Of a stretch of DNA of 64,000 nucleotides, positions 57,915 to 63,868 are shown in pieces. The DNA is from Firmicutes bacterium HGW-Firmicutes-14 (GTDB lineage Bacteria; Bacillota; Thermincolia; Thermincolales; UBA2595): assembly GCA_002840275.1 (NCBI GenBank), contig PHAB01000010.1, forward strand, positions 1 through 64,000. The letters are read 5' to 3'. Numbering within the stretch: the first letter of the stretch is position 1; the number at the start of each line of letters is the position of its first letter. Under the pieces are notes generated by a model. It saw nothing but the letters and a program-made list of their open reading frames with translations. It was not told the DNA's origin and did no database searches. The position numbers were made by a program, and so were the translations under genes.

Positions 57915-58712
57915 ATGAAAAAGAGCCGTAAATTCATCTCAATGCCAATAGTAAGTCTGGAAGAAGGCATTCAAATCGGTTCTGTAAGGAACCTGGTTGT
58001 TGACCCGGCGAAACAGGATATTGCAGCAATAATCGTTGATCAGCGCCGCTGGTTCCGGGAACAGAAAATAATCCCCTATGCAAAGGTAAGGAGTATAGGC
58101 AATGATGCCATAACCATAGACCAGTCAGCAAATGTCCAGAAATCCGTAAGCCTGCCGCAGATTCTGAAACTGATGAAGGAAAACATCAATCCCATTGGGG
58201 CCAGGGTAATTACGGAAAGCGGTACCGTCCTGGGAGAGGTTGATGAATACTACATAGATGAAGAAACAGGAAAGATTCTCCAGCTTGAAATCAGCGGCAA
58301 GCTGCTGGAAAGCCTTTTTAAGGGGAAAGGACTAATGTCCGCAGAATATATCCGGACCTTTGGTTCAAAAATAATTGTCGTCAGGGACGGCACCGAAGAA
58401 AAACTGGAAAAACTGGACGGCGGGCTTAATGAAACAATCCATACCATAAAAGAGAATACCACCAATCTCTGGGAGTCAACCAAAAAACAAACCAAAAAAA
58501 TAAGCAAAAACCTGAAGGATAAATACGAGAAAAAAAGTAAAGATGAAAAAACTGCTGTTGAAGAGCCGGCCCCCGAACCTGACCCCAATATGGATATTAC
58601 CGGAGAAGTAGAGATAAAAAATGAGGAAGTCCTTAATGAAATCTCCGATACATCCCAGACTTTAGATGAACCGGGTACGGAAAATGAACCGGAACAGCCT
58701 AAAGGCGTATAG
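57915..58712 (+). CDS. PRC-barrel domain protein
   Basis: 265 residues: two PRC-barrel beta domains (about 5-80 and 90-160), then a basic helical linker and a highly charged acidic tail. The PRC domain is found in photosynthetic, RNA-processing and sporulation proteins (YlmC/YmxH type). No membrane helix. It runs on the plus strand against its neighbours and may be inserted into the ctc-to-prs gap. Confidence 0.8.
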   Translation: MKKSRKFISMPIVSLEEGIQIGSVRNLVVDPAKQDIAAIIVDQRRWFREQKIIPYAKVRSIGNDAITIDQSANVQKSVSLPQILKLMKENINPIGARVITESGTVLGEVDEYYIDEETGKILQLEISGKLLESLFKGKGLMSAEYIRTFGSKIIVVRDGTEEKLEKLDGGLNETIHTIKENTTNLWESTKKQTKKISKNLKDKYEKKSKDEKTAVEEPAPEPDPNMDITGEVEIKNEEVLNEISDTSQTLDEPGTENEPEQPKGV

Positions 58713-58761: not shown

Positions 58762-59307
58762 TTACTCCACTATTTTCTTGAATTCCGCAGTAAGGTCAAA
58801 GAATTTTTCCTTGTCACCTTCCTGCAGTGCTAGGTCGATCTGGGCCAAAAGCGTTGTCTTGTGCCGTTCTTTGCAAATTATCGCACGGGTCAATTCCCAT
58901 TCAAGCCTCTTAACCACCTGATGATAGAATATCTTGCGCCTTATATCCTGTTTATTATTTAAAACAGCCCGCTGCAGTGAAGATATTACTGTGGATTTAA
59001 AAGACAGACGGACAAAAAAGTCCTCGGGAGGGAGGGAATCCAGGAGATTCATTATTTCATCAATATCTTCATAATACCTGTCATTAAGCCGGCATAAAAA
59101 AGACACTGTTGATGAATCCACTGCAGAAATCAGCAGGGCATTGGGCAGGTATCTGACATCCTCAACAAAATGTGTCTTTATAAGCAGTTCCTCATTATCA
59201 ATAAGAAACTCTAAAATTTTTGCCGTGTCAGACCGTTTTAGTCTGTGTTTTTCCAAGAACCAGTCTATATATTTTTTTTTCTTATAAACTAAAATTGCCT
59301 CTTCCAT
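58762..59307 (-). CDS. YpiB-like (UPF0302) protein
   Basis: About 181 residues from the ATG at 59307 behind AGGTGG. The pattern matches B. subtilis YpiB: W-F-L-E-K-H-R-L-K-R near the N-terminus, then H-F-V-E-D-V-R-Y-L-P, V-R-L-S-F-K-S, and the C-terminal I-D-x-A-L-x-x-x-D-x-E-x-F helix. In Bacillus this family has an IDEAL/UPF0302 architecture linked to envelope stress control; function here unknown. Confidence 0.75.
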   Translation of the reverse strand: MEEAILVYKKKKYIDWFLEKHRLKRSDTAKILEFLIDNEELLIKTHFVEDVRYLPNALLISAVDSSTVSFLCRLNDRYYEDIDEIMNLLDSLPPEDFFVRLSFKSTVISSLQRAVLNNKQDIRRKIFYHQVVKRLEWELTRAIICKERHKTTLLAQIDLALQEGDKEKFFDLTAEFKKIVE

Positions 59308-59413
59308 AATTACCACCTAAAACTTATAGTCAACTTAGGTAATATTCTAAGCTGTAATAAGAATTAGACACCGTTAGATAAAAACCTTTTGTGTAATAGG
59401 TGGTAATTTATGG
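59304..59413. repeat. Inverted repeat pair of ribosome-site-like sequences
   Basis: CCATAATTACCACCTA (59304-59319) and TAGGTGGTAATTTATGG (59397-59413) are inverted copies with a one-base insertion, about 77 bp apart. Each contains AGGTGG plus ATGG. The left one is the ypiB-like start site; the right one opens only a 17-codon frame. CTTAG/CTAAG is a smaller repeat between them. Confidence 0.5.
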
Positions 59414-59428: not shown

Positions 59429-61342
59429 TTAATCCAAGCCTATTTTTATACGTTTTTTTATAATATGTTTTTCAATACCCCATGCCGCTTCCTTCGGGTC
59501 ATCACTCAGGAAGGCCTTTCCTCCGGTGACCTTCTCCAGTCCCTCGGTCAGGAATCTGAGTACCCGGGGACCTCCCGTTACCTGGGGAAATGGTGATAAA
59601 TGTGTATATAAACCAAACGGCAGGGCAAACATGGCATAAATTAAACCTTTTTGATCCAGGTACTGGGACACCGAAACAGCCGCCGGCATATCTGCCGGGT
59701 CTATTCCCAACCGGTCTGCCAGGAGTGTTATAAGCATGGATACCCGTCCGGCATCGGCTGATGTCCCAAAATTAAGCGCCGGCGGGATATTCCAGTTACG
59801 GCATATTTCCTGCAGACCCGGCCCCGCCAAACCGGCTGCATCATTATTACTCAACCCGGCAGCTCCCAGGCCGATGCTACCGCTCCCACAACTGACAACC
59901 AGGATGTCTCTTTTGATAAGCTCCCCTGCCAGCTTTACAGCCATATAATCATGAGGACCGGTCGAAAGGGTGGTACCGTTAACCAGAGCCGCTATCCCCT
60001 TTAGTTTTCCCTCTTTAATAGCCATGACCAGTGGTCCGGGGTCACCCCCCATCATGTTGAGAAGAGACTCTGTAGAAAAGCCTGCTATCACCCTGTTAGT
60101 ATTTTGCGGAACTCCGCTGCCTGCATTTCCTTTCCGCTGCCGGAAATTTTCGACTGCCATTCCAATAAGTGTTTCGGCCAGCGACCCGGCTTCCGAAGGT
60201 TTATACGCAAGATTTCTCTCGACACCGGGAAGCCTCACCAACCCTCCGACAGTGACCAGTTTTACCCCGTACTTTGTTTCATAAGGTTTCAGGTTAGGCG
60301 GAGAACTTCCTGTATCCATAACAAATACATCTATAGTCCCGGTGGCAAGGGCCGGTTCTATTGTCAGCCAGTTGCCGGTCAGGCCACGGAATATTTCATC
60401 TGCGGGCAAACGCTGCATCATTTCCTGCCCGGTTTCACAAGAGCCGATGATTCGGAGGCCCTTGGCTCCGGCATCCCTGGCGAACTGTTGAACCTTAGAA
60501 TCCCTTGCCATATAATATGTGGCAAACCCAACCCAGGGCTGGTGCCCGTTAAACACAATATTAACATAATCAGGCTCCAGGACCCCCAAGTCGACCTCTG
60601 CTTCATGAGGCTCAGGAGTACCTAAAAGTATATCCTGAACCATTTCCAGCCCCACCTGAGCCCCGTAAACAGTGGAAATACCGAGGCACATGGCTTTTCG
60701 AGCCAATGATACAAAATCTCCGTCTGTATTTGTCAGACAACTGGCTGCAGCATCTTTAATCTCAAAAAGGATGCCGGTGGGATATATCCCCAGGTCCCGC
60801 CAAAGTTTCTGCCGGGATACGGGAGTAAAGGCATCGATTATTTTGCTTGACTGCCCATAACCACGGTGGAGTTCATACATTAAGAAATTACCCAACCCCA
60901 GGGCCACTTGTTCAGGGGTTCCATTGGTGGCAATCCCGCACCTCCCGGCAAACCAGTATAGTTTATTCCTGTCCATAATATTAAAGGGTGTCTTCCCTTC
61001 AGCCGTTGATTTCAAAGTTCTATACGCTTCATAAGCGTGATGTGCATATGCAGAAGCGCCCATAATATTACGTAAGAGCATATCCCGCATAGCCATGGCA
61101 TCCGGGCCTATACCACAGACCCCCAGTTCCGCACTGTATTCACTTGAAATACGGCAGGGTCCGTTAGTACAGAACTGGCAGCTGACCCCTGTGAGGCAAT
61201 AATTACACCTAATCTTTTCCTGGGGTTCATAACGGTCAAAAGTGTTGTTCATTCCATCTTCCCGGAGTATTTCGTACATTTTCCGGACAGAATCATGGAT
61301 ACTGACCCTCCCGTCCAGCCGGTTTCGATTCCTGTCAGCCAA
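59429..61342 (-). CDS. CO dehydrogenase (CooS)-family protein lacking C-cluster ligands
   Basis: About 637 residues with the full CooS fold by alignment to CooS-II of Carboxydothermus hydrogenoformans. B-cluster cysteines are present (C55, C58, C63, C76). One D-cluster cysteine (C46) remains but the second is Ser54. The C-cluster histidine (H266) and the catalytic lysine (K565) are kept, but all five C-cluster cysteines are replaced: C295 by Glu303 beside C302, C333 by S346, C446 by G456, C476 by S487 (C485 nearby) and C526 by S528. CO/CO2 chemistry is therefore unlikely. TTG start at 61342 behind AAAGGGGGA; a TTG at 61393 is also in frame. No cooC, cooF or acs gene is near. Confidence 0.85.
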   Translation of the reverse strand: MADRNRNRLDGRVSIHDSVRKMYEILREDGMNNTFDRYEPQEKIRCNYCLTGVSCQFCTNGPCRISSEYSAELGVCGIGPDAMAMRDMLLRNIMGASAYAHHAYEAYRTLKSTAEGKTPFNIMDRNKLYWFAGRCGIATNGTPEQVALGLGNFLMYELHRGYGQSSKIIDAFTPVSRQKLWRDLGIYPTGILFEIKDAAASCLTNTDGDFVSLARKAMCLGISTVYGAQVGLEMVQDILLGTPEPHEAEVDLGVLEPDYVNIVFNGHQPWVGFATYYMARDSKVQQFARDAGAKGLRIIGSCETGQEMMQRLPADEIFRGLTGNWLTIEPALATGTIDVFVMDTGSSPPNLKPYETKYGVKLVTVGGLVRLPGVERNLAYKPSEAGSLAETLIGMAVENFRQRKGNAGSGVPQNTNRVIAGFSTESLLNMMGGDPGPLVMAIKEGKLKGIAALVNGTTLSTGPHDYMAVKLAGELIKRDILVVSCGSGSIGLGAAGLSNNDAAGLAGPGLQEICRNWNIPPALNFGTSADAGRVSMLITLLADRLGIDPADMPAAVSVSQYLDQKGLIYAMFALPFGLYTHLSPFPQVTGGPRVLRFLTEGLEKVTGGKAFLSDDPKEAAWGIEKHIIKKRIKIGLD

Positions 61343-61414
61343 TGGTATGGATCCCCCTTTATCTAAATTACGGCATTCAATATTCTTCCTCAACAGGTCT
61401 TATTTATTCCGGAA

Positions 61415-61450
61415 ACAAAAAGGAGCCGATTCAACGTTTGAATCAGCTCC
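61415..61450 (-). terminator. Terminator after prs
   Basis: GGAGCTGATTCAA pairs with TTGAATCGGCTCC on the minus strand, followed by TTTTTG. Confidence 0.85.
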
Positions 61451-61476
61451 TTTTCGTTTTTGGCCCAAAAGCCGTA

Positions 61477-62424
61477 TTACGCAAACAGTTTACTGACCGA
61501 CAGGTCCTCATGTATTCTGATAATGGCTTCCCCCAGCAGAGGAGCCACTGACAGCACTCTTATTTTATCGATCGCTTTATGCTCAGGAAGTGGTATCGTA
61601 TTGGTTATAATCACTTCTTTTATGGGCGATTTCTCAAGCCTTTCTATGGCCGGTCCGGACAGTACACCATGGGTGCAGCAGGCGAATATTTCCTTTGCCC
61701 CGCGTTCCAGAAGGGCCTCAGCGCCCTGAGTAATGGTGCCTGCTGTGTCTATGATATCATCGATCATTATGATCGTCTTCCCGTTCACATCACCGATAAT
61801 GTTCATAATCTCAGCCACATTTGGCTCAGGTCTCCGTTTGTCTATTATAGCTATAGCCGCACCTATACGTTCTGCCATATCCCGGGAACGGGTAACCCCT
61901 CCCAAGTCTGGTGAAACAACCAACACATCTTCAAGGTTCTTACTGAGGAAGTATTCGGCCAATATAGGCACCCCGGGCAGATGATCCACAGGGATATCAA
62001 AAAAGCCCTGAATCTGGCCTGCGTGAAGGTCCATGGTAATGACTCTCATGGCCCCGCTCGCTGTTATTATATTGGCTAATAACTTTGAAGTTATCGGGTC
62101 ACGGGCCCTGGCCTTCCGGTCCTGCCTGGCGTATCCGTAATATGGGACTACTGCGGTAATCCTCCGTGCTGACGCCCTCTTCAGGGCATCAATAACAATC
62201 AGCAGTTCCATGATGTTCTCATTAACCGGCTCACAGGTAGGCTGGATAACGAAAACATCCGCTCCACGCACGCTCTCATTAATTTTAACATGGATTTCAC
62301 CGTCACTGAATCTGGATACTTTCGATTCACCCATTGATACACCCAGGTATTCTGCAATTTCCTGGGCCAGGCTCAAATTAGCGTTCCCCGAAAAGATTTT
62401 GAGTTTCCGATTAAAAATTGGCAT
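61477..62424 (-). CDS. prs: Ribose-phosphate pyrophosphokinase
   Basis: Makes PRPP from ribose-5-phosphate and ATP for nucleotide, NAD and His/Trp synthesis. 315 residues with the class I signatures: V-I-Q-P-T near 56, [11 protein letters not shown], and the PRPP loop [10 protein letters not shown]. The ATG follows GGGAGG about 12 bp upstream. 70 bp after glmU, as gcaD-prs in B. subtilis. Confidence 0.97.
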
Positions 62425-62494: not shown

Positions 62495-63868
62495 TCACTT
62501 TTTCTTGGTTTTTCTAGCAACCCATCCCGGGTATACCACCTGTTTGCTTCTCTCCACACATAAAGCGCCTTCAGGAACATTCTTGGTCACTGTGGACCCG
62601 GCCCCCACTATAGCTTCCCGGCCAATATTCACCGGTGCGACCAGGTTGGAATTGCTTCCGATAAAGGCCTTATCCCCGATAACAGTTTTAGATTTTCTCG
62701 AACCGTCGTAATTGCACGTTATGGTGCCTGCCCCAACATTAACCTGTTCACCAATTTCAGCATCACCCACATAGCTCAGGTGAGGAACTTTACTGCCCTG
62801 GCCAATAACAGATTTTTTGATTTCTACGAAATCTCCTACTTTGACATCGTCTCTCAACACCGTCCCGGGCCTGATATAGGCAAAAGGCCCGACAGTAACA
62901 CTGTTCCCTATGACCGATTCCGCCACCACCGAATTGTGTATGGTTGAATCATGCCCCACTTCTACATGACTAAGGCGGGAATAAGGGCCGATACGGCAAT
63001 TAGGGCCAATTTGGCACCTGCCCTCAATAATTGTCCCGGGATAAATAATTGAATCCGGACCGATAGAAACATCCCTGTCTATATAAGTATTGTGAGGATC
63101 AATGATTGTTACACCCTCTACCATAAGCTCTTCCAGGACCCTGTGCCTTAATGCCCTTTCTGCTTCAGCCAGCTGGACCCTGTCGTTTATGCCCATAACT
63201 TCTAAAGAATCTCCTATCCTGACCGTCCCAATACTGTTCCCCATCTTTCTGATAATTGCAAGGACATCGGTAAGATAAAATTCCCCCTGGGCATTGGCCG
63301 GACTTATTTCCCGCAAACCGCTGAAGAGGCTTTGCCCGTTGAAACAATATATTCCCGTATTAATTTCATTAATATTAAGCTGTTCGGAAGAAGCATCTTT
63401 ATGTTCTACTATGCCTTCAACAGAGCCGTTTTCATTTCTTAAAATCCTCCCATATCCTTTAGGGTCATCCACGACCGCCGTCAAAACAGTGACAGAAGCG
63501 CCGGACCTGTCATGAGATTCAATCAATCCAGCCAGAGTATCAGGTGTAATGAGGGGAGTATCGCCACATAAAACCAGGACATTGCCGTTAACGCCGGACA
63601 GAAGCGGTCCTGCCTGCATTACGGCATGACCTGTCCCCAGTTGTTCTTCCTGTTTGACCCACTCAACTCCGGCATCAATCGCTTTCCGCACAGTTTCCGC
63701 TCCATGACCTATAACAACAATGTTACGGCTAATCCCCGCTTTCTCTGCCGCTCTTATTACGTGACAGAGCATCGGCTGCCCGCAAATATTATGCAAGACC
63801 TTGGGAATCTGTGATTTCATACGTGTACCCTTACCGGCTGCCAAAATAATTGAGACTGTGTTTCCCAA
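62495..63868 (-). CDS. glmU: Bifunctional GlmU, UDP-GlcNAc pyrophosphorylase/glucosamine-1-phosphate acetyltransferase
   Basis: Makes UDP-GlcNAc for peptidoglycan. 457 residues: N-terminal uridyltransferase with L-A-A-G-K-G-T-R-M-K and the C-G-D-T-P-L-I loop; C-terminal left-handed beta-helix of hexapeptide repeats (about 255-450) ending with the acetyltransferase site. TTG start behind GGGAGGAGACA. Heads the glmU-prs pair; purR-spoVG would be expected to the right in the conserved order. Confidence 0.97.
   Translation of the reverse strand: MGNTVSIILAAGKGTRMKSQIPKVLHNICGQPMLCHVIRAAEKAGISRNIVVIGHGAETVRKAIDAGVEWVKQEEQLGTGHAVMQAGPLLSGVNGNVLVLCGDTPLITPDTLAGLIESHDRSGASVTVLTAVVDDPKGYGRILRNENGSVEGIVEHKDASSEQLNINEINTGIYCFNGQSLFSGLREISPANAQGEFYLTDVLAIIRKMGNSIGTVRIGDSLEVMGINDRVQLAEAERALRHRVLEELMVEGVTIIDPHNTYIDRDVSIGPDSIIYPGTIIEGRCQIGPNCRIGPYSRLSHVEVGHDSTIHNSVVAESVIGNSVTVGPFAYIRPGTVLRDDVKVGDFVEIKKSVIGQGSKVPHLSYVGDAEIGEQVNVGAGTITCNYDGSRKSKTVIGDKAFIGSNSNLVAPVNIGREAIVGAGSTVTKNVPEGALCVERSKQVVYPGWVARKTKKK

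Follow-up and report, generated by a model that had tools for sequence, protein, structure and literature searches.

A CooS-V-type protein that has lost four cysteines and one other hybrid-cluster ligand while keeping its reading frame

Genomic context of the gene

The window, i.e. the whole stretch of 64,000 nucleotides analysed here, contains on its minus strand a genuine open reading frame of 637 codons (hereafter the query), which runs from a TTG at 61342 to a stop at 59429. The query and its surroundings are organized as follows:

57915–58712, plus strand: PRC-barrel-type protein (name judged from sequence), neighbour conserved by synteny
58762–59316, minus strand: UPF0302/IDEAL (ReoY-like) protein, conserved downstream neighbour (profile matches, synteny)
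59429–61342, minus strand: cooS-V-type (structural group D-1) gene, the query, with inherited Glu295 and four cysteines lost (alignment, profile and PDB matches)
61343–61420, minus strand: leader between the putative prs terminator and the TTG start, with the Shine-Dalgarno-like AAAGGGGG (sequence, relatives)
61420–61476, minus strand: hairpin followed by a T run (AAAAGGAGC..GCTCCTTTTT), after prs (read from the sequence)
61477–62424, minus strand: prs (ribose-phosphate pyrophosphokinase), conserved upstream neighbour (ORF list, synteny)
62495–63868, minus strand: glmU, conserved neighbour (ORF list, synteny)

Thermincola and other family members share the gene order glmU–prs–cooS-V–UPF0302–PRC–L25–pth–mfd. 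The hairpin AAAAGGAGC..GCTCCTTTTT, which was not among the matches of a consensus terminator scan, is the probable terminator of prs, and the query gene would thus probably form its own transcription unit. Upstream of the TTG, AAAGGGGG stands in place of the AAGGAGG of relatives; start codon and altered Shine-Dalgarno together suggest, at most, weaker translation. A block common to the leaders of the family's cooS-V genes (ATAAATAA...GAGGAA) is partly kept in 61343–61420 and could be a promoter or a regulator site. The distance from prs to cooS-V is 780–1200 bp in relatives. In Thermincola, this spacer carries a divergent degV-like gene (L016 4947–5792, L024 4972–5826) that is absent from the window; since this is not an electron partner, loss of an upstream partner gene was rejected.

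The complete genome G002, which belongs to the same family, cleanly lacks cooS-V and has prs adjoining UPF0302 (L099 2573–2803), so the gene is dispensable there. No CooS-V match was found in G001 or in G008, the latter only 75% complete. In G009 (L052), cooS-V is 86–90% identical to the orthologues of family f1 and mfd only 57–59%, a contrast to be put down either to transfer between families or to very strong conservation. The query's own genome holds no other D-1 gene able to take over, an intact ordinary CooS and, elsewhere, two hydroxylamine-reductase-type hybrid-cluster protein (HCP) genes of the normal kind. Two of its genes for acsA-type CO dehydrogenase (CODH), at C4:2337–4095 (L012, L014) and C66:201–1930 (L011, L013), both on the minus strand and near contig ends, are broken. 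The break falls at the same point of ~110 bp that are nearly identical between the copies, which makes misassembly of near-identical repeats the probable cause; a genuine break would put a frameshift in both CODH subunits of CODH/ACS.

The query is a CooS-V orthologue that lacks most active-site ligands

The query matches Prismane (PF03063) and is a full-length CODH-family protein. With 692 bits against NCBIfam TIGR01702 (cut-off 478), it lies far over the threshold for anaerobic CO dehydrogenase and would hence be annotated as a working CODH; the same search reported no HCP model. Its best PDB match is 7b7q, CooS-V of Carboxydothermus hydrogenoformans (782 bits, 55% identity), with the runner-up far behind at 363 bits. 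AlphaFold models, for which 12 sequences were used, reached mean pLDDT values of only 65.3 and 59.7 (low confidence); a Foldseek search with such a model still returned CooS-V first. In a FastTree protein tree, the query lies beside Thermincola CooS-V (support 0.91). The 7b7q match, the tree and the common locus all assign it to D-1/CooS-V and, judged by sequence and position, it is a positional orthologue of CooS-V rather than a CooS-II derivative. Because the protein and mfd trees both place it beside Thermincola and the locus is the same in the family, the gene is a vertical orthologue, neither a recent duplicate nor an import.

The hybrid (Fe/S/O) cluster of CooS-V is held by Cys338, Cys449, Cys480, Cys521, His259, Glu295 and Glu556 (PMC9311411). 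In the same numbering, the aligned query residues are His259, Glu295, Ser338, Gly449, Ser480, Ser521 and Asp556, along with Lys558. The five C-cluster cysteine positions therefore read E, S, G, S, S, exactly as a preliminary description of this DNA had it. That description was also right that the C-cluster histidine, the catalytic lysine and the four B-cluster cysteines (C47/C50/C55/C68) persist, and the type III D-cluster motif (C38/C41) is kept as well. Where it went astray was in taking CooS-II as the frame of comparison, which misplaces the change: Glu295 is ancestral to group D-1 (PMC6344411) and is found in all 62 distinct D-1 relatives, so only four of the five cysteines were lost on the query lineage. 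The extent of the loss was nonetheless understated, as position 556, a direct ligand and Glu in relatives, has become Asp, and substitutions have reshaped the second shell (N337G, H483I, T560L, D562Y and others). C338S, C449G, C480S, C521S and E556D, affecting five of the seven hybrid-cluster ligands, are lineage-specific.

Our comparison set comprised 75 relatives, 68 of them distinct (62 with Glu295, six with Cys295). All 68 keep the four cysteines; among the 69 sequences, loss of five of the seven ligands is seen in the query only. Likewise, a scan of 84,980 genomes, one per species, yielded 12 relatives, none without the four cysteines. No second genome with the query's substitutions was found in this one-per-species set or in a phylum sample, an even draw of 398 genomes that leaves room for a second case elsewhere. 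The query has neither the full C-cluster ligand set of a catalytic Ni,Fe-CODH, a histidine plus five cysteines, nor the hybrid-cluster ligand set of HCP. Of the features that define D-1, it has Glu at the first cysteine position (295), the type III D-cluster and the B-cluster cysteines, but S, G, S, S and D in place of Cys338/449/480/521 and Glu556.

Could the cysteines merely have shifted by a few residues, which the preliminary description had named as the finding that would overturn it? Two cysteines are new in the query, Cys294 (a two-step change from Ile) beside Glu295 and Cys478 near position 480; none lies near 338, 449 or 521, and simple displacement was rejected. The query can probably no longer hold the active-site metal cluster, and hybrid-cluster chemistry is very probably gone with it. 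A smaller metal site made up of His259, Glu295, Asp556 and the new Cys294 and Cys478 might have replaced the cluster. In reduced CooS-V, His259 and Glu295 hold the exo iron Fe4 (PMC9311411), both are kept together with Lys558, and Cys478 sits two residues before the lost Cys480. However, structure prediction did poorly here (mean pLDDT 65), and keeping three of eight functional residues matches chance expectation given that 85% of invariant columns are kept. We consider such a site unlikely.

Accelerated change centred on the pocket

The query carries 144 unique amino-acid changes as compared to 30 and 32 in the Thermincola (L016) and L015 orthologues, a ~4.6-fold excess. The six neighbour genes show no such excess in the query genome (query and the other two, respectively: prs 9, 6, 14; UPF0302 25, 23, 22), the largest contrast being that of glmU (50, 35, 24). 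A custom branch codon model gave an omega of 0.168 on the query branch versus 0.056 elsewhere, ~3-fold over background (2dlnL = 22.2 against one ratio), values that are approximate since synonymous change on this branch amounts to ~1.1 per site by our own conversion. For mfd from the same taxa, the model gave 0.103 versus 0.079 (2dlnL = 2.2, not significant); together with the six neighbours, this rules out fast evolution of the whole lineage. Neutrality (omega = 1) was rejected for the query branch (2dlnL = 84.4), the purifying selection so detected being an average over the branch.

Relaxation was steepest around the active site. Within five residues of the ligands, omega rose from 0.023 to 0.263, and elsewhere from 0.059 to 0.155, bearing in mind that estimates for single regions draw on fewer codons and that the branch length for the middle domain is clearly unreliable. 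Away from the ligands, omega = 1 was again rejected (2dlnL = 72.7). Invariance across 38 other sequences was found at 195 alignment columns; the query departs from it at 30, and half of these (15/30) fall within five residues of seven ligand or catalytic positions, with proximity to the pocket approximated by distance along the chain (Fisher p = 1.5e-4). In the N-terminal stretch with the B/D motif, one of 26 invariant columns is changed. Other family members have 0–6 changes at those columns, and CooS-V itself has 15, one of them near ligands.

Several pocket changes required more than one nucleotide step: three for N337 (AAC to GGA) and two each for C521 (TGT to TCA), T560 (ACA to TTA), H483 and I294. 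The loss must therefore have some age and is not very recent. Nevertheless, there are no stops or indels over the 637 codons and zero gap columns against the L015 orthologue, which, with the rejection of neutrality, bears out the earlier statement that the ORF is intact and its shape conserved. If the pocket sites have been neutral since the loss, the post-loss phase would make up roughly one quarter of the branch, and sites outside the pocket would have evolved in it at an omega near 0.45, i.e. below 1, provided that there was no positive selection at the pocket. This favours a protein that is still constrained, yet relaxed.

The pattern of change also speaks to the quality of the sequence. 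Two acsA-type genes of this assembly are interrupted at one and the same point, probably by an assembly fault, and one might suspect that sequencing or assembly error lies behind the query's substitutions, too. Four separate in-frame codon replacements accompanied by matching changes at dozens of pocket sites, some involving two or three nucleotides, in an unbroken frame and with third-position G+C like that of the neighbours, refute this and leave error with a negligible probability.

Discussion

Has this protein been kept, or is it on its way out? The preliminary description held that it had probably been kept for another task. This is not demonstrated: omega is three times the background, G002 lacks the gene and no second genome has the substitutions, which makes slow decay nearly as likely as retention. 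As a close rival, then, a dispensable CooS-V would have lost its function and the constraint on its active site first, with the frame as yet unbroken, a course of events that is quite possible, if somewhat doubtful. The rise in omega that mfd does not share, the clean loss between prs and UPF0302 in G002 and the lack of a match in G001 and the incomplete G008 are in line with it. Moreover, the two hydroxylamine-reductase-type HCPs of the query's genome could cover the role, and deletion of a clade D gene of Clostridium autoethanogenum reportedly had little effect (PMC13056359). Against decay stand the rejection of omega = 1 and the six intact B/D cysteines. Furthermore, the ~80 excess amino-acid changes, if all from a fully neutral phase, would need ~110 neutral substitutions, and the simulated chance of finding no stop after 100 of these is ~5% with indels uncounted, of which none were observed.

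The explanation we favour, at about even chance, is that the query is a pseudoenzyme: a protein whose catalytic residues are lost while fold and frame are kept under purifying selection, as found here. A CooS-V-type (D-1) protein would have lost its Fe/S/O hybrid cluster, leaving it without hydroxylamine-reductase or CO chemistry. It would still fold as a homodimer of the CODH type, with a B [4Fe-4S] cluster pair and a single bridging D cluster, and most likely was kept as a redox-active or partner-binding dimer. The protein would thus be made, lack the hybrid cluster and be functional in its retained part; electron relay, redox sensing or a scaffold are our guesses at its function. For normal clade D members, regulatory or stress functions have been suggested without proof (PMC13056359). 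Counting against retention are the constraint relaxed everywhere, 3-fold in omega, the clean absence in G002 and the restriction of the substitutions to one genome. Weaker translation, at most hinted at by the TTG and the altered Shine-Dalgarno, would point the same way.

What would be new about such a protein? CooS-V is a CODH scaffold whose chemistry was already altered by one Cys-to-Glu exchange, and the query would be the next step on it, with the whole cluster lost and the electron-transfer clusters intact. Should it prove functional, the fold's structural and electron-transfer roles would be separated from catalysis. At a little short of even chance, a CODH-fold protein lacking the active-site cluster has been kept for electron relay, as a redox sensor or around a new mononuclear metal site; that it represents a step beyond the CooS-V deviants is held just as tentatively. 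Our search of the open-access literature turned up no description of a CooS-V homologue lacking all the cysteines, which is weak evidence of novelty.

Among known systems, CooS-V (7b7q, 7b9a; PMC9311411) is the closest: homology extends over the whole length (55% identity) and includes the fold, Glu295, His259, Lys558, the type III D-cluster motif C38/C41 and the B-cluster motif. Cys338/449/480/521 and Glu556, all five retained by CooS-V, which assembles a [4Fe-3S-nO] hybrid cluster, are missing from the query. The preliminary description called the query more extreme than CooS-V; it is a further degenerated CooS-V and not an independent relative of it. It shares with group D-1 (PMC6344411) the Glu at Cys1, a Tyr for the acid-base His, the Lys, the type III D-cluster and the locus (glmU-prs-cooS-V-UPF0302, conserved in the Thermincola family), but the group was defined with Cys2 to Cys5 kept and the query is without all four. 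HCP, the hydroxylamine reductase, belongs to the same superfamily (Prismane, PF03063) and its active site is resembled by those of D-1, yet its hybrid-cluster ligand set is intact, unlike that of the query. To the Ni,Fe-CODHs, CooS-II and its relatives, the query is similar in fold, B and D clusters and the active-site His and Lys, whereas identity is only ~26–34% and all five C-cluster cysteines are missing.
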